Shown here: in pieces, positions 20,781-36,251 of the stretch
Numbering within the stretch: position 1 is the first letter of the stretch
Layout: each line of letters begins with the position of its first letter
From: Clostridiales bacterium
Lineage (GTDB): Bacteria > Bacillota > Clostridia > DUOD01
Length of the DNA: 36,642 bases
NCBI GenBank assembly: GCA_012838995.1
Contig: DUOD01000004.1
Coordinates: 1-36,642 of the forward strand
Reading direction: 5' to 3'
Notes under the pieces: generated by a model
Databases searched by the model: none
What the model was told of the DNA's origin: nothing
The model's input: the letters and a program-made list of their open reading frames with translations, nothing else
Position numbers and translations under genes: made by a program

Positions 20781-20818
20781 TAACTTTAAATATGTAGCCA
20801 TGGTTTAAATTTGGGTTG

Positions 20819-20895
20819 ACCATAGCTCTTTGATTTACCGCAATCTATTATTCCGGTAAAAATAGGGTTTATTGAGCTATGGTTTAATCTTTTTA
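20819..20895 (+). terminator. Terminator after the PBP gene
   Basis: ACCATAGCTC-type arm at 20819-20828 pairs with GAGCTATGGT at 20874-20883, enclosing a second hairpin (20834-20840 with 20854-20860). A T-rich tail follows to 20895. Confidence 0.65.
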
Positions 20896-20988
20896 TTCAT
20901 CGCAGCTTATTAATCAATATAGAAATGTTTTTAGCTTTAAATAAATACTTAACGTAAACACTTTAAGTAATTACTTGAAATAAAGATA

Positions 20989-29201: not shown

Positions 29202-30572
29202 CTAATACCCCCTATTTTCCCTCTTAGCCCTCAGCAACCTGTACCTTAGATCTTCATCAATATAGCAATCCACCAGGGATTCCATCATTCTGTCGGTAAT
29301 CCTTACCTCCCGGTCAACAATGTCCAGCCACAAGGGAATGCCCCGTCCGTCCTTGGACGTCAGGCTGTAGAGCAGGCAGGCGGTGTCGTAAAGATGCTCC
29401 TGCTGCTCCTTAAGCATGTCCAAGGCTATGGGATGTGGATCCCTGGATAAACGCACAAAACAGGTGACCAGTCCTTCCTTGGAAGGCTGTACAACCCTCT
29501 CGTCCACCACCAGCATTTCCCCCACATCCAACAAACCAAAGAGCAGTTCCCGGTCGTACAGACCGTCGGCATCCCATTCCACATCCTCCCTTATAACCGG
29601 GTACAGAAAATCCGTCTTTATCTCTTCGATTACTCCTACCACCAGCACGCCCTTTTTCAGCACCAGATCATAAAACTCCTCCCAGGCCTGCTTGCATTTT
29701 ATCCTGTACTGTACCAGGGAACCGTCCAGCATTATTAAAAAAGGATCCATGGCCTCAAGGCTTTGGATAGCGGTCTCGATCTCCAGCTGGGCCATCTTGG
29801 CCGAACGGCGGTTTTCATCGGCAGCCGCTCCGGATATGCCCCTACCCTCCCATATACCGTGGGTACCGGTAAAAGATCCGTCCTCCGGCACCGTCCCGGG
29901 GGGAACCGCCGGAAAGACCGTTGAAGGAGAATTAGACGAAGACCGGGGAGAAGGCTGGGAAAGGTCCTCCAAGGAAGCTGTGGACTCGTCCCTCGGAGAC
30001 GACTCAGCTTCCGAGAAATCTGTGGACCCAGCTTTCGGAGATGACCCAGCCTCCGGGAAAGATCCAGGCTCCAGGGAAGACCCAGTCTCCGAAAAAACCG
30101 TGGATCCGGTCTTGGGAAAAGTCCCAGTCTCCGAGGAAGCTGCGTCCCTAGCTTCCGGGAAAGGCCCAGCCTCCGGGGAAGATTGTGAAGAAATTTCCCC
30201 TGCCGCCTTGGGATAAATTCTTGAAGGAGCCGCGGCAAAACCCGGATAGTGAACATCTACCAGCACAATATCCTCATGATCCCTACGGGTACTCTTGGCC
30301 ATTGCCCTTATCAGGGCCAGGTAATGGGGATAGGACGATCCCACCATGTTGATGGAACCGTCCACCCCCACCAACGGCCTATCCCCGGCCAGCCTCTTTA
30401 TAGCATCCGGCATACTTCGAGACAGCTTCATAGACCTAACAGCCCTTCTTAGAAGTATATCTTTCAGTTTTTTATCCCTGTCACGACTGAGACCATAGTA
30501 CCTTTTTTTTAATTGCCGATTGACATAGTCCATTTTCTCGGATATAATCCTGTCTATATTGAAAACTCCCAT
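29202..30572 (-). CDS. nurA: NurA-domain nuclease with a large repetitive insert
   Basis: 456 aa, longer than usual for NurA. The nuclease core is split: the first part has VGVDGSINMVGSSYP with the metal-binding D71; the second part resumes with AKMAQLEIETAIQSLEA and MLDGSLVQYR (D283), then LVVGVIEE, LLFGLLDVGEML and VTCFVRLSRDPHPIALDM. Between them (about residues 123-255, positions 29808-30206) lies a Ser/Pro/Glu/Gly-rich linker made of short repeats. NurA degrades DNA ends as a dimer docked on HerA. An AGGAGG lies 13 bases before the ATG. Confidence 0.88.
   Translation of the reverse strand: MGVFNIDRIISEKMDYVNRQLKKRYYGLSRDRDKKLKDILLRRAVRSMKLSRSMPDAIKRLAGDRPLVGVDGSINMVGSSYPHYLALIRAMAKSTRRDHEDIVLVDVHYPGFAAAPSRIYPKAAGEISSQSSPEAGPFPEARDAASSETGTFPKTGSTVFSETGSSLEPGSFPEAGSSPKAGSTDFSEAESSPRDESTASLEDLSQPSPRSSSNSPSTVFPAVPPGTVPEDGSFTGTHGIWEGRGISGAAADENRRSAKMAQLEIETAIQSLEAMDPFLIMLDGSLVQYRIKCKQAWEEFYDLVLKKGVLVVGVIEEIKTDFLYPVIREDVEWDADGLYDRELLFGLLDVGEMLVVDERVVQPSKEGLVTCFVRLSRDPHPIALDMLKEQQEHLYDTACLLYSLTSKDGRGIPLWLDIVDREVRITDRMMESLVDCYIDEDLRYRLLRAKRENRGY
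29965..30190 (-). repeat. Minisatellite of 18- and 24-bp units inside nurA
   Basis: Reading the plus strand, blocks of 18 bp (like TCCGGGAAAGGCCCAGCC) and 24 bp (starting TCCGAGGAAGCTG or TCCGAGAAATCTG) alternate across about 225 bp, giving at least ten related units. All unit lengths are multiples of three, so the NurA frame is kept. They encode runs such as SSETGTFPKTG and SFPEAGSSPKAG. Confidence 0.75.
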
Positions 30573-30601: not shown

Positions 30602-30676
30602 ATTATACAATAAATTAACAAAATAAAAAATTTTTCCAAAATTTTTGTTGACTTTAATTAACATTACTGTTAATAT
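30602..30676. promoter_or_regulatory. Divergent promoters of nurA-herA and abrB
   Basis: Plus strand: TTGACT (30648-30653), 17-bp spacer, TAATAT (30671-30676) for abrB. A dyad TTAAC (30658-30662) / GTTAA (30669-30673) lies in the spacer and could be an autoregulatory site. Minus strand: TATAAT (30602-30607) for nurA, with a weak T-rich -35. Confidence 0.6.
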
Positions 30677-30723
30677 ATATTGTAATGTATTTTGTCGATT
30701 TTTGTAAAGCTAGGAGGAAAGTT

Positions 30724-30969
30724 ATGAAGTCAACAGGGATTGTCAGAAAAGTGGATGAATTAGGCAGAGTAGTTATTCCCATCGAGCTAAGACGTACATT
30801 AAACATTGCAGAAAAAGACGCACTGGAAATCTACGTTGACGGCGAACATATCATACTCAAGAAATACGAACCGGCCTGCATTTTCTGCGGCAACGCCAAA
30901 GACGTAGAAAACTACATGGGAAAGAACATCTGCCGAGACTGTCTTGCAGAAGTAACAAAAAAGTTTTAA
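30724..30969 (+). CDS. abrB: AbrB/SpoVT-family transition-state regulator
   Basis: 81 aa. The swapped-hairpin DNA-binding domain is KSTGIVRKVDELGRVVIPIE and LRRTLNIAEKDALEIYVDGE (residues 2-41), nearly canonical for AbrB. The C-terminal half has four cysteines (CIFCG near 53-57 and CRDC near 70-73) that may bind zinc, as in many Clostridia AbrB proteins. ATG follows AGGAGG. In Bacillus abrB lies next to yabC (rsmI) and metS; here it points the opposite way from both. Confidence 0.95.
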   Translation: MKSTGIVRKVDELGRVVIPIELRRTLNIAEKDALEIYVDGEHIILKKYEPACIFCGNAKDVENYMGKNICRDCLAEVTKKF

Positions 30970-30981
30970 CCGTTGATCCAC

Positions 30982-31065
30982 CGGTCCAAGGTACAGTGCC
31001 TAAACATGATTTGTCGCGGGCACATACCTGAGTCTATGGCTTCCATACCAATGGAAGCAAGACCG
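30982..31065 (+). ncRNA. Candidate structured RNA, three-way junction
   Basis: Thirteen bases after abrB the sequence can fold into a closed three-way junction. P1: CGGTC (30982-30986) with GACCG (31061-31065). P2: AGGTA-CA-GTGCC (30989-31000) with GGCAC-A-TACCT (31019-31029). P3: GCTTCCAT (31039-31046) with ATGGAAGC (31051-31058), a four-base loop. There is no ORF, and a strong terminator follows at 31171. I do not recognise a known class. Confidence 0.45.
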
Positions 31066-31170
31066 ACTAAAGATCAAAAGGGTTAAGGGAAAAAACTAAT
31101 TAGCCAAAGGGATTAATAACCCAAATGCAAAAATGAAAAGGCTAAAAAATAGTTAAAGGGTTACAAGGAT

Positions 31171-31209
31171 AATAGGGTATTGCTTTTTAGCAATACCCTA
31201 TTAATTTTT
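31171..31209 (+). terminator. Terminator of the abrB transcript
   Basis: A perfect 14-bp stem (31171-31184 with 31189-31202), a four-T loop, then AATTTTT. It leaves a 200-nt untranslated 3' region after abrB. The stretch 31066-31170 has no gene. Confidence 0.9.
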
Positions 31210-31291: not shown

Positions 31292-32503
31292 TTAGATATC
31301 GTCCAGTATGTGATTGAAAACATAGTCAAGACCCAGGGCAAAACCGCCGTAGACAACCGCCTTACTGCCCAGGGAAGCATACACCACCGAAATGCTCAGG
31401 GGACTTAAACGGTCAATGGTTTGCCGCAAGGGCCTAATGAAATGCTGTCCCAGTTCTATTACCCTTCCCCCTATGATAACCAGGTCTACATCCAGTACCA
31501 CATTGATGTTGGCGATAACCCATCCCAGCATCCTTGCGCTGTCGTGGATTATGTTTAAAACGTATCCATCCCCCATCATGGCGGCCTTCCTAACGATGCC
31601 CAGGTTAATGCCCTGTATATTTCCCCCCGCCAGCTCCAAAGCCTTGCTCCGGCAGCCCTTTGCTATACCGTCCTTTATCCGCTTGATGATGGCGGGCACC
31701 GCCAGCCTGGATTCCAGCGGCCCGAACTGATCGACCCTGCAGCCCCCTTCATCATAGGAAGAAATAAAATGGCCGATCTCCCCGGCAGCATTCCTACTGC
31801 CTTCATACAACTTTCCGTCGATTATTATACCGGCGCCTATGCCCGTTTCCACACCTACATAAACCATATTATTATACCGCTTCCCGGCACCGTACCTGCA
31901 CTCGCCAAGGGCGGCCATGTTAACATCATTTTTAACAATGACCCTGGCATTAAAGTTCTTTTCCAGCTTATCTTTTATGTTGATTCCGTCCCAGCCCTGG
32001 AACTGGGGCGCTAGCAGCAACCGGCCGGTTTCGTCATTGATAACGGCCGGAAGGCCCACCACTATGGCCTTTAGCTTATCGGGATGTACGTTGTTATCCT
32101 TTAAAAGAACATGGAGGGACCGGATTATATCCTCCAGAATAGGCCCGCCTATCTTAAGCTCCGGCAGCACAATCTCCCTAAATGCCACTATATTACCCTG
32201 AAGATCGCCCAATACCACCCTTACCACATCGCTGCTCAGATCAACAACACCGATGAACCTGTATCGGTAATTAAACTTCAGCAGTATGGGCCGCCTACCG
32301 CCGATGGAATCGCCCTCCCCCACTTCCCTTAGCATACCGGCCCTTAGCAGCTGATCTATGTTACTCGACACACTGGGCGCACTGAGGTTAAGGAGCTTTG
32401 CCAGCTCGGCCCTGGATATCATGCCCCTTTGCCTAAAGGCGTCTATAATCAATTTTTGATTGGTTTCCCGTACCAGTCTTTGGTTCCCTGCCACCCTTTT
32501 CAC
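31292..32503 (-). CDS. ROK-family transcriptional regulator
   Basis: 403 aa. An N-terminal helix-turn-helix (about residues 15-75; RGMISRAELAKLLNLSAPSV) is joined to a ROK sugar-kinase-like domain. ATP/sugar motifs: VGVETGIGAGIIIDGKLYEG (about 216-235) and AAGEIGHF, with the conserved zinc-type loop reduced to DEGGCRVDQFG, so the usual CxCGxxGC motif is incomplete. It probably represses sugar genes and responds to a sugar or sugar phosphate. Its GTG start overlaps the stop of the PIG-L gene by four bases, so translation is coupled. Confidence 0.92.
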   Translation of the reverse strand: MKRVAGNQRLVRETNQKLIIDAFRQRGMISRAELAKLLNLSAPSVSSNIDQLLRAGMLREVGEGDSIGGRRPILLKFNYRYRFIGVVDLSSDVVRVVLGDLQGNIVAFREIVLPELKIGGPILEDIIRSLHVLLKDNNVHPDKLKAIVVGLPAVINDETGRLLLAPQFQGWDGINIKDKLEKNFNARVIVKNDVNMAALGECRYGAGKRYNNMVYVGVETGIGAGIIIDGKLYEGSRNAAGEIGHFISSYDEGGCRVDQFGPLESRLAVPAIIKRIKDGIAKGCRSKALELAGGNIQGINLGIVRKAAMMGDGYVLNIIHDSARMLGWVIANINVVLDVDLVIIGGRVIELGQHFIRPLRQTIDRLSPLSISVVYASLGSKAVVYGGFALGLDYVFNHILDDI

Positions 32504-33342
32504 TTGTCGATTTCCTTTATCATTTGTATGTAGGGTTGATACCTGAGTTTGGGCCGGGGGCTTACATCCAAATAAAGTTCTATATAACAGTCATCGCACG
32601 CCCGCTCTTCCCTCCGGGTCACCAGGTCCTTTATTATCTCGCCCTGGGATTCCCACTGCCTTATTGCCCTACGGATCCTGTCCTCCATATCCTTGGGATA
32701 CTTTATGGCCCTGTTTGCCCTTATATTGAAATCGGTTTTGTTTAATACCGAATCCTCGGGGGTAAAATCCGACCACACCGAATATACCATGGTGGTCTTA
32801 ATAACACTGGGAAGTCCCCAATCCATCAGTATGGGATCCCCGGCCTGGGGAGAATCATAAAACCCTATATAGTGCACCGCCTCGTGATCGGTGTGTTCCC
32901 TATAGCCATTGGGTATAAGCATCCGGGTTATCCTAAGCTCCCTGAGCTTTTTGATGTGGTAGTAATTTATACCTGCCCTGCCCCAGGGCATCTTCCAGCC
33001 TATATAGGGCTTCACGCTAAAGTCCGAAAGATCAAACCTTACTATATGGTCCTCGGGCAGGCCCAGGGCCTTATATGCCTTGACCGTCTCCTTGGCCCTT
33101 ATATCCACTATGGTGTCCTTCAGCTTTGCATCACTGTAACCGCCGTCACCGTTGCAGAATATGAAAATATACACCTGGGCGCCGTTTTCCATGGCGGTAC
33201 ATATAAGACCGCCGGCACCGATTACCGCATCATCGTCATGGGGGCTTAACACAGCCACCCGTTCGTTGCCCTCTTCCCAGTCGGGGAAAAGGTGGCCAAT
33301 GTGGCGGCTAACGGTTTTATCCCTCAGGTTATAGTACTGCAT
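32500..33342 (-). CDS. PIG-L family deacetylase
   Basis: 280 aa. The zinc motif VAVLSPHDDDAVIGAGG (about residues 30-46) gives His, Asp, Asp, and YREHTDHEAVHY (about 147-158) supplies the second histidine pair. Family members remove acetyl groups from N-acetylglucosamine-type sugars on lipids, mycothiol/bacillithiol precursors or small glycans; the substrate is unknown here. No signal peptide. It lies between a Gfo/Idh oxidoreductase and a ROK regulator, which points to an amino-sugar pathway. GGAGG RBS. Confidence 0.93.
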   Translation of the reverse strand: MQYYNLRDKTVSRHIGHLFPDWEEGNERVAVLSPHDDDAVIGAGGLICTAMENGAQVYIFIFCNGDGGYSDAKLKDTIVDIRAKETVKAYKALGLPEDHIVRFDLSDFSVKPYIGWKMPWGRAGINYYHIKKLRELRITRMLIPNGYREHTDHEAVHYIGFYDSPQAGDPILMDWGLPSVIKTTMVYSVWSDFTPEDSVLNKTDFNIRANRAIKYPKDMEDRIRRAIRQWESQGEIIKDLVTRREERACDDCYIELYLDVSPRPKLRYQPYIQMIKEIDK

Positions 33343-33416
33343 ATTATACCTCCTTATACTGATTGCACTTTAACAGTTAAAGCAATGGGATTGTCCGGTG
33401 TTGGGATTTGAGCGGA

Positions 33417-34418
33417 TTACAGCCTAATTATCTTGCCTTCTTCCAGGGATTGCTTTATAGCCAGTACTATACCCAATACATCCCTGCTGTCCTGGGGGGT
33501 AACAACTTCGGGATATTCATCCCTTTCCACGCATCCCACGAAGTACTCCACCTGGTTGGCATAGGCATCCTTCCTGTCGGTAACTACCTCCTCCGGGGTG
33601 CCGTCCTGCTTGTATAATATCAAACGATTTATGGCGCTTTCCCTATCTTCCAGGTTAAAACCCGCCCTTAGGGCGAAATCCGCGGTGCCCTTGGTACCCA
33701 CCGCCCTGAAACCCATGGTAAAGGGAAAACCCTGGGTCATTTCATAGGCACCCTCTACACAGGCCTTGGAACCGTTGGCGAAGTTCAACACCGACATCAC
33801 ATGGTTCCAGGCACCGTTGGAGCTTTTTTTGCCGGTAGCGTAAACGCTTTCCACAGGACCCAGTAAATACCTTACATAATCGATATCGTGGATATGGAGG
33901 TCAAATAACCCGCCTCCGCTCTTTTGGGGATCAAAGAACCATTCACCCCAGTCGGGATGCTGGGCCAGACGACAAGCGTATACCATCGTAACATCGCCCA
34001 ACTGACCGTTGTCGTAGAATTCCTTGATTTTCATATATTCCGGCCAGAACCTTAATACCTGAGCTACCATAAACTTAACCCCGGCTTTTTCCACCGCCGC
34101 CAGTATGTTGTCGGCCGCTCCCATGGTCAGGGTAAAGGGTTTTTCCAGCAGAATGTGCTTGCCATAGGACGCCGCCATCACCGCGTACTTTTCATGCAGA
34201 AAGGTGGGTAAGCATATATCGATAATATCTATGTCTTCCCTTTTGATAAGCTCCTCGGCATCCTTGTAATACTGACAGCCGTAGTCCCGGGCAAACTCAC
34301 CGCCTGCCTGTTCATCGACATCGGCAACGCCCTCCACCCTTGCATTGCTTAAAAGTTTGTACCCGTCGGCATGGGTCCTCCCCATAAAACCTGCCCCCAC
34401 AATACCTACCTTTATCAT
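33417..34418 (-). CDS. Gfo/Idh/MocA-family oxidoreductase
   Basis: 333 aa. N-terminal Rossmann fold with VGIVGAGFMGRTHADGY (NAD(P) binding), DIIDICLPTFLHE and the catalytic-lysine motif LLEKPFTLTM (about residues 93-102). The C-terminal domain includes GGGLFDLHIHDIDYVRYLLG, the conserved DxxHxxD-type segment. Typical substrates are sugars or inositols oxidised at a hydroxyl. It is the first gene of a three-gene operon with PIG-L and ROK (75-bp gap to PIG-L). AGGAGG RBS. Confidence 0.95.
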   Translation of the reverse strand: MIKVGIVGAGFMGRTHADGYKLLSNARVEGVADVDEQAGGEFARDYGCQYYKDAEELIKREDIDIIDICLPTFLHEKYAVMAASYGKHILLEKPFTLTMGAADNILAAVEKAGVKFMVAQVLRFWPEYMKIKEFYDNGQLGDVTMVYACRLAQHPDWGEWFFDPQKSGGGLFDLHIHDIDYVRYLLGPVESVYATGKKSSNGAWNHVMSVLNFANGSKACVEGAYEMTQGFPFTMGFRAVGTKGTADFALRAGFNLEDRESAINRLILYKQDGTPEEVVTDRKDAYANQVEYFVGCVERDEYPEVVTPQDSRDVLGIVLAIKQSLEEGKIIRL

Positions 34419-34702
34419 ACTCTTACCTCCTCACAATTTTTTTTATAATAACAAGGTTAGGTTGGCCTTGAGTCTAAGTCGGGTTTAACCTATAATGCCC
34501 CATGGTTTTTTCTTCAGTGGAAAGCATTGGATGTGGAAAAGTATATTAAATATAGCGTTATATAACGTTTGAGGGTTGATTCATTAATTTGGTTACTTCG
34601 TTAAGTTAATTAAGTAAGTATATATGAAGTTATATCCGTTGAGCAATTATGTACATAGTTGATGCTTAAGCAACATAAAGCAACGAGACCTATTGAAGCA
34701 GT
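34419..34702. other. Intergenic, nothing recognised
   Basis: AT-rich, with no supported gene. It presumably includes the promoter of the Gfo/Idh operon. Confidence 0.5.
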
Positions 34703-35070
34703 TAAAGCGCGTTTACCGGCACTTATAAAACCAGAACGCTGGGGTTGTTATGTAGCTAAAACGGGATTGTTGAATGATTAAAGCAATATTGTTAACACTT
34801 CCACAACTTAAAGTAATAGTACTGTTTAATGGCTAAAGCTAGATTGCTGGCACCTCCACAGCTTAAAGCAGAATAATTATTGAGTAACAAAGCAAGGTTC
34901 TTAACACTTGAACAGCTAAAGCGGCGAAACTATTAAAGTGACTAAAACGGAATTTGATACTTCTAAAGCCAAATCAATGAAATTGTTTGCTACTAAAACG
35001 GGATTGCTGACACTTGCACAGCTAAAGCGATAAAAACGTTGAGTGATTAAGCAGAATTGTTAAGTGAATG
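34703..35070. repeat. Imperfect tandem repeat of about 54 bp
   Basis: About seven diverged copies. One landmark (TAAAGC or TAAAACGG) occurs near 34703, 34757, 34834, 34888, 34943, 34994 and 35048; a second (CAGCTAAAGC type) near 34809, 34864, 34917, 34964 and 35023. Most spacings are 51-55 bp. The typical unit reads CTAAAACGGGATTGCTGACA followed by CTTGCACAGCTAAAGC. No ORF spans the array. 35071-35408 holds nothing recognisable. Confidence 0.7.
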
Positions 35071-35408
35071 AAGAAAAGTCTATTTCTAGTATCCTGATAT
35101 GATCTAAACTAAAGATATGCCATTACTTTTCCCGAAACAATATATATAAGTATCACGAACTAATATTCCAAAGTCGATATTCCAAGCCTAGTACCCATGC
35201 TTAGTATCCTAAGCTGTTGGTGCAGAACATATACTCAGCATACCCTACTGATGGGCTATTGACTGCTTCCGGGCTATTGCCGTATATAAAAGTAACTATC
35301 GTTTCAACCATGTGTCTTATAGCCACAACCACAGCAATTATAGTTAATAATAAATATTCGCCATGAAACGGGAAATCCCTTCCTTAAAATAGAAATATTT
35401 TATAAAAA

Positions 35409-36251
35409 TTACCGAACATGGATGACCTTATAGACATCCCCCTTGGGCAGGCCCCTATCCCGGGCGGTTTGTTTTATGGCCTCCATGGTGGACATGCCCT
35501 TTTGGGTATAGGCCTCTACATGGTCTTCTATGGACAGGCTATGCCACCATTCTTCTTTCGAAGCGGTGCCCTTAAAACCTTCAACAAGCAGCACCATCTC
35601 ACCCCTGGGCGGCTTTTGCCTGGCCCATTCATATATCCCCTCTAAGGTATCCCTCACCACTTCTTCATGAAGCTTGGTCAGCTCCCGGGCCAGGGCGGCC
35701 TTCCGGCCGGAAAAAACGGTCAGCATGTCCTTTAGGACGGAAAGGATCCGGTGGGGCGCTTCGTAAAACACCATGGTCCGTCTCTCTTCCTTTAACTCCG
35801 ACAGCCTTTTCATCCGTTCCCCTTTATCCCTGGGCAAAAAACCTTCGAAGGCAAATCGGCTTATGTCAAGGCCGGACAATACCAGGGCGGTAACAACAGC
35901 GCTGGGGCCGGGTATGTGGGTTACGGGCAGGCTATGATCTATGGCGGCGGCTATAACCTTGGCCCCGGGATCGGATATACCCGGGGTACCGGCGTCGCAC
36001 ACCAGTGCCACCCTCTTGCCCTCTTTAAGCAAAGTTATGACCTGCCCTACCCTGGCCTGTTCGTTGTGTTCATGACAGCTCACCAGCGGCTTCTTTATGT
36101 TAAAGTGATTTAATAGCTTTAAGGTATGGCGAGTATCCTCGGCGACTACAACATCGGCCTCTTCTAGCACTTCCAGCAGCCTTAAAGTAACGTCCTTAAG
36201 GTTGCCCATCGGTGTGGAACATATATACAACATGCCCTGACGGTTATCCAT
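35409..36251 (-). CDS. rsmI: 16S rRNA (cytidine(1402)-2'-O)-methyltransferase
   Basis: 280 aa, the usual length. Tetrapyrrole-methylase fold: LYICSTPMGNLKDVTLRLLE at the start, VVAEDTRHTLKLL (about residues 35-47), LVCDAGTPGISDPG (about 84-97), HIPGPSAVVTALVLSG and FEGFLPRDKGER. It methylates the ribose of C1402 in 16S rRNA. ATG follows GGGAGG and overlaps the upstream trmN6-like gene by eight bases. In Bacillus this gene is yabC, between yabB/yazA and abrB. No yazA is present here. Confidence 0.97.
   Translation of the reverse strand: MDNRQGMLYICSTPMGNLKDVTLRLLEVLEEADVVVAEDTRHTLKLLNHFNIKKPLVSCHEHNEQARVGQVITLLKEGKRVALVCDAGTPGISDPGAKVIAAAIDHSLPVTHIPGPSAVVTALVLSGLDISRFAFEGFLPRDKGERMKRLSELKEERRTMVFYEAPHRILSVLKDMLTVFSGRKAALARELTKLHEEVVRDTLEGIYEWARQKPPRGEMVLLVEGFKGTASKEEWWHSLSIEDHVEAYTQKGMSTMEAIKQTARDRGLPKGDVYKVIHVR

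Follow-up and report, generated by a model that had tools for sequence, protein, structure and literature searches.

The sequence that follows abrB in this genome (positions 30970-31209) is, in our assessment, probably an extended 3' UTR of the abrB mRNA that is specific to this lineage. Positions refer to the window, the whole stretch of 36,642 nucleotides of Clostridiales bacterium DNA that was analyzed. This reading builds on the sequence itself, its calculated folding, the terminator, the gene order and the absence of homologs from what was searched. The tail is unusually long and partly folded. As no relatives turned up in the genomes and RNA libraries that were searched, it probably represents an ordinary message 3' end that changes fast, most likely a cis-acting or inert one. 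The region is made up of the following features:

30724 to 30969, + strand: abrB, an open reading frame for an AbrB/SpoVT-type regulator of 81 aa (PF04014 MazE_antitoxin/AbrB fold, 5e-13)
30973 to 30979, + strand: 5' arm of the outer helix, UUGAUCC, with favored partner 31080-31086 and an alternative in which UUGAUC pairs with 31072-31077
30982 to 30986, + strand: 5' arm of helix P1, CGGUC, which competes with the pairing 30983-30986/31072-31075
30989 to 31029, + strand: P2 hairpin, with a small apical stem and two runs of 5-6 bp that flank a 2x1 internal loop
31039 to 31058, + strand: P3 hairpin, GCUUCCAU-ACCA-AUGGAAGC, 8 bp, pair probability 0.87-1.0
31061 to 31065, + strand: 3' arm of P1, GACCG, which pairs with 30982-30986
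31066 to 31168, + strand: linker, A/G-rich and largely unstructured (z = -1.0; equaled by 34/200 shuffles)
31170 to 31209, + strand: intrinsic terminator with a 15-bp stem, a 4-nt loop and a T tract (z = -7.4)

The encoded protein is a normal AbrB, with identity of up to 89% to AbrB of other Bacillota, and the abrB stop lies at 30969. A promoter of perfect 12/12 consensus (TTGACA-17-TATAAT) is located at 30520-30548 on the + strand, approximately 175 nt 5' of the abrB start, and a second, weaker promoter-like site, with a TG before the -10 element, is located at 30648-30676. The consensus promoter sits in the antisense of the NurA gene, whose NurA-like product (29202-30572) carries an E-, G-, S-, P- and T-rich low-complexity insert; diverged 18-nt repeats (TRF 30025-30091) encode this insert. 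Immediately 5' of the abrB ribosome-binding site is a Spo0A-box-like sequence, TTTTGTCGAT (approximately 30690-30699; with flank TTTTGTCGATTTT, 30690-30702). In B. subtilis, abrB is under Spo0A control; given this site and the presence of a Spo0A gene in the same genome, similar regulation of abrB is plausible here.

Between the abrB start codon and 31160, no promoter-like site scored at least 8 of 12, so the simplest reading is that the region belongs to the abrB transcript. The same result weighs against a second interpretation, in which a trans-acting small RNA would be cut from the abrB 3' UTR (approximately 30970-31209), end in the terminator and regulate other messages by base-pairing with them; we consider this somewhat unlikely. 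The architecture of the tail would suit such an RNA, with a folded head, an unpaired linker and a strong terminator, and without a long ORF. On inspection, however, the unpaired linker was A/G-rich and ribosome-binding-site-like and lacked the C/U-rich stretch that sRNAs blocking ribosome-binding sites typically carry.

The tail ends in a strong terminator, a perfect 15-bp hairpin (31170-31203) followed by a T tract, which bears out the initial annotation, where a strong terminator had been placed approximately 100 nt beyond the helices. In keeping with a structured 3' UTR, the element is bounded by the abrB stop and by a same-strand intrinsic terminator, and the earlier description of a structured, non-coding abrB 3' region ending in a terminator was supported. 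The accompanying statement that the region has no ORF does not hold strictly: frames of 37 aa (from TTG, 30973) and 26 aa (from ATG, 31007) exist. Either frame could represent a short protein-coding gene, and the open frame does run across the folded head. Two stretches tested against Pfam, however, matched no family, one of them being the 38-aa stop-to-stop frame in which both short frames lie; inspection revealed no well-placed ribosome-binding site for either, and no DNA-level homolog was found. We regard a coding function as highly improbable.

The initial annotation had drawn three helices with fully complementary arms, closing as a three-way junction, and all three were found where they had been drawn. 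The arms of P1 (CGGTC, 30982-30986/GACCG, 31061-31065) and P3 (GCTTCCAT, 31039-31046/ATGGAAGC, 31051-31058) are perfectly complementary, but the description is wrong for P2 because its arms (AGGTA-CA-GTGCC/GGCAC-A-TACCT) form two 5-bp runs, with one additional G-U pair in the fold, flanking a 2x1 internal loop. In isolation, the 84 nt fold exactly into the drawn junction, with a free energy of -31.7 kcal/mol. In its natural context, however, this junction is predicted to be a minor state, since P1 is out-competed by a longer helix that takes the same strand. The favored structure of 30970-31091 (-42.5 kcal/mol) keeps P2 and P3 and loses P1, which is replaced by UUGAUCC (30973-30979)/GGGUUAA (31080-31086) together with GGUC (30983-30986)/GAUC (31072-31075). 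The best tested variant of this stretch that retains P1, with the outer helix UUGAUC/GAUCAA, reached -36.7 kcal/mol.

Pair probabilities followed the same pattern. Within these 122 nt (30970-31091), values for P2 were mostly 0.9-1.0, with 0.8 for its closing pair, and those for the 5' arm of the outer helix (30973-30979) were 0.97-0.99; for the latter arm, two models of the full mRNA gave 0.21 and 0.56. For P1, the pair probability was 0.03-0.04 in 30970-31091, 0.04-0.05 in a transcript from the abrB start codon, and approximately 0.10 (one pair read) in a transcript starting after the consensus promoter. P2 and P3 thus stay near 1 in context whereas P1 remains at 0.03-0.10, and closure of the junction by P1 fails in these calculations.

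Comparison with shuffled sequence showed that the 84-nt stretch is stably folded, with z = -3.9 and 0/200 shuffles folding as well. Because the frame had been picked to fit, the test was redone with the frame free, and 3/1000 dinucleotide shuffles of 30970-31110 held an equally stable 84-nt stretch; by both measures, the head folds better than shuffled sequence. Across the whole window (2612 windows of 84 nt, both strands), approximately 1.1% reached z <= -3.9, several of these being terminators or coding sequence. The fold of the head therefore exceeds chance and is unusual, yet not exceptional.

These results bear on a third interpretation, that the tail is a neutral spacer left by the abrB-rsmI rearrangement and folded by chance, which we judge unlikely. 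The share of all scanned windows that fold as stably, and the minor role of the drawn junction in context, are consistent with a spacer; the scarcity of local shuffles that fold equally well when the frame is free argues against it. Most of the window is less stable than the head, and such stability is not required of a neutral spacer, a point that counts against the extended 3' UTR reading. At a separate site, 20785-20900, a long-range stem, ACCATAGCTC...GAGCTATGGT (- strand reading), surrounds a second hairpin (z ~ -3.7) just past a penicillin-binding-protein-like gene.

Gene order was compared across 80 abrB loci of other Bacillota, in 68 of which a terminator was detected. The terminator starts 0-84 nt after the abrB stop in 63 of these 68 (median 22), compared with 200 nt here. 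RsmI is encoded near abrB in 63/80 relatives, mostly immediately downstream and convergent, and NurA/HerA are found upstream of abrB in a few of the 80 loci. The window retains NurA and HerA upstream of abrB, as well as rsmI (beginning at 35409) and its methyltransferase neighbor downstream. The abrB-rsmI neighborhood is broken here by approximately 4.1 kb (31292-35408), consisting of genes for a ROK regulator, a PIG-L deacetylase and a Gfo/Idh oxidoreductase (31292-34418) and a noncoding stretch. Since the long 3' region adjoins this rearranged interval, it may have arisen or been exposed there. The broken synteny also speaks for a neutral spacer, as does the confinement of the element to this genome. 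In the noncoding part of this interval, which separates the Gfo/Idh gene from rsmI, 34755-35075 contains several diverged copies of a ~54-nt repeat, 60-78% alike (for example, CTAAAACGGGATTG...ACACTT.CACAGCTAAAG); neither another copy elsewhere in the genome nor an Rfam match was found for this repeat.

Rfam searches of the tail at gathering and permissive thresholds returned no family at gathering score. The best sub-threshold matches, Arrc11 (22.7 bits against 52) and RAGATH-6 (22.3 against 170), owe their scores largely to the terminator. A self-cleaving ribozyme or a riboswitch was rejected on the lack of an Rfam match and, for the riboswitch, also on the lack of a same-strand downstream gene to control; a tRNA-like element was likewise rejected, as an ARAGORN scan of the window detected neither a tRNA nor a tmRNA. 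At the opposite end of the window, 45-207 carries CRISPR repeats that match Rfam CRISPR-DR2, and a strong hairpin, folded on the - strand, comes next at approximately 280-400.

Sequence searches with the 3' region gave a similar picture. Against the abrB loci, blastn returned AT-rich chance matches only, and 391 class genomes, searched at the DNA level, gave matches of 17-36 nt (best E 7.5e-4), about what chance would yield over so many genomes. The covariance model R1 was built from a single sequence and would overlook distant homologs. Run against the 391 genomes of the class, 398 of the phylum and the 80 abrB loci, it recovered only itself and a few matches of ~21 bits or less, consistent with chance, and none of the 80 loci matched the model. 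No second copy of the element was present in its own genome, phages and plasmids gave no match or chance matches only, and a 16-base pattern occurred at five places in viral contigs, 0 of which matched R1. This genome is the only one of its order in the collection searched, with near relatives missing, so the failure to find homologs is weak evidence against conservation in near kin. A new conserved RNA family is unsupported.

The searches also bear on the small RNA interpretation, since without a homolog there is no conserved seed to support it. That sRNAs can derive from the 3' ends of mRNAs is well established (PMC9438474, PMC7821165). A small RNA released from the abrB tail is possible but unsupported. 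Its fuller version, an abrB-derived small RNA confined to a deep-branching, spore-former-type Bacillota lineage, freed from the 3' UTR and tying AbrB/Spo0A control to other messages, appears distinctly unlikely.

For the extended 3' UTR that we favor, transcription from the abrB promoter would pass abrB, the folded head (P2 and P3 within the closing stem) and then the A/G-rich linker, and the transcript would end at the intrinsic terminator (31170-31203). Its origin probably lies in a rearrangement of the abrB-rsmI interval in the lineage. If the tail is functional, a cis role would be likeliest: the stable hairpins and the terminator stem may delay 3'-to-5' decay of the abrB message or determine its lifetime in some other way. 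An effect on abrB message stability would make this a further case of a conserved regulator gaining a lineage-specific 3' UTR, a modest gain in knowledge since such acquisition is a documented general pattern. The analysis serves mainly to caution against taking the drawn three-way junction for an RNA family.

Among known systems, 3'-UTR-derived small RNAs (PMC9438474) share with the abrB tail its position, its length and a terminator as possible 3' end; the tail differs from them in having no conserved seed and an unpaired segment that is A/G-rich and not C/U-rich. Set against long, structured, cis-acting 3' UTRs (PMC7821165), the tail has no recognized known motif or ribonuclease site, but it shares with them an extended stop-to-intrinsic-terminator region, stable secondary structure and a lack of conservation among orthologs. 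A review of bacterial 3' UTRs reports that those of orthologous genes mostly differ in sequence and length, partly via gene rearrangements, and that the functional 3' UTRs known so far, such as that of B. subtilis hbs, are likewise not conserved (PMC7821165). This pattern fits the abrB tail well.
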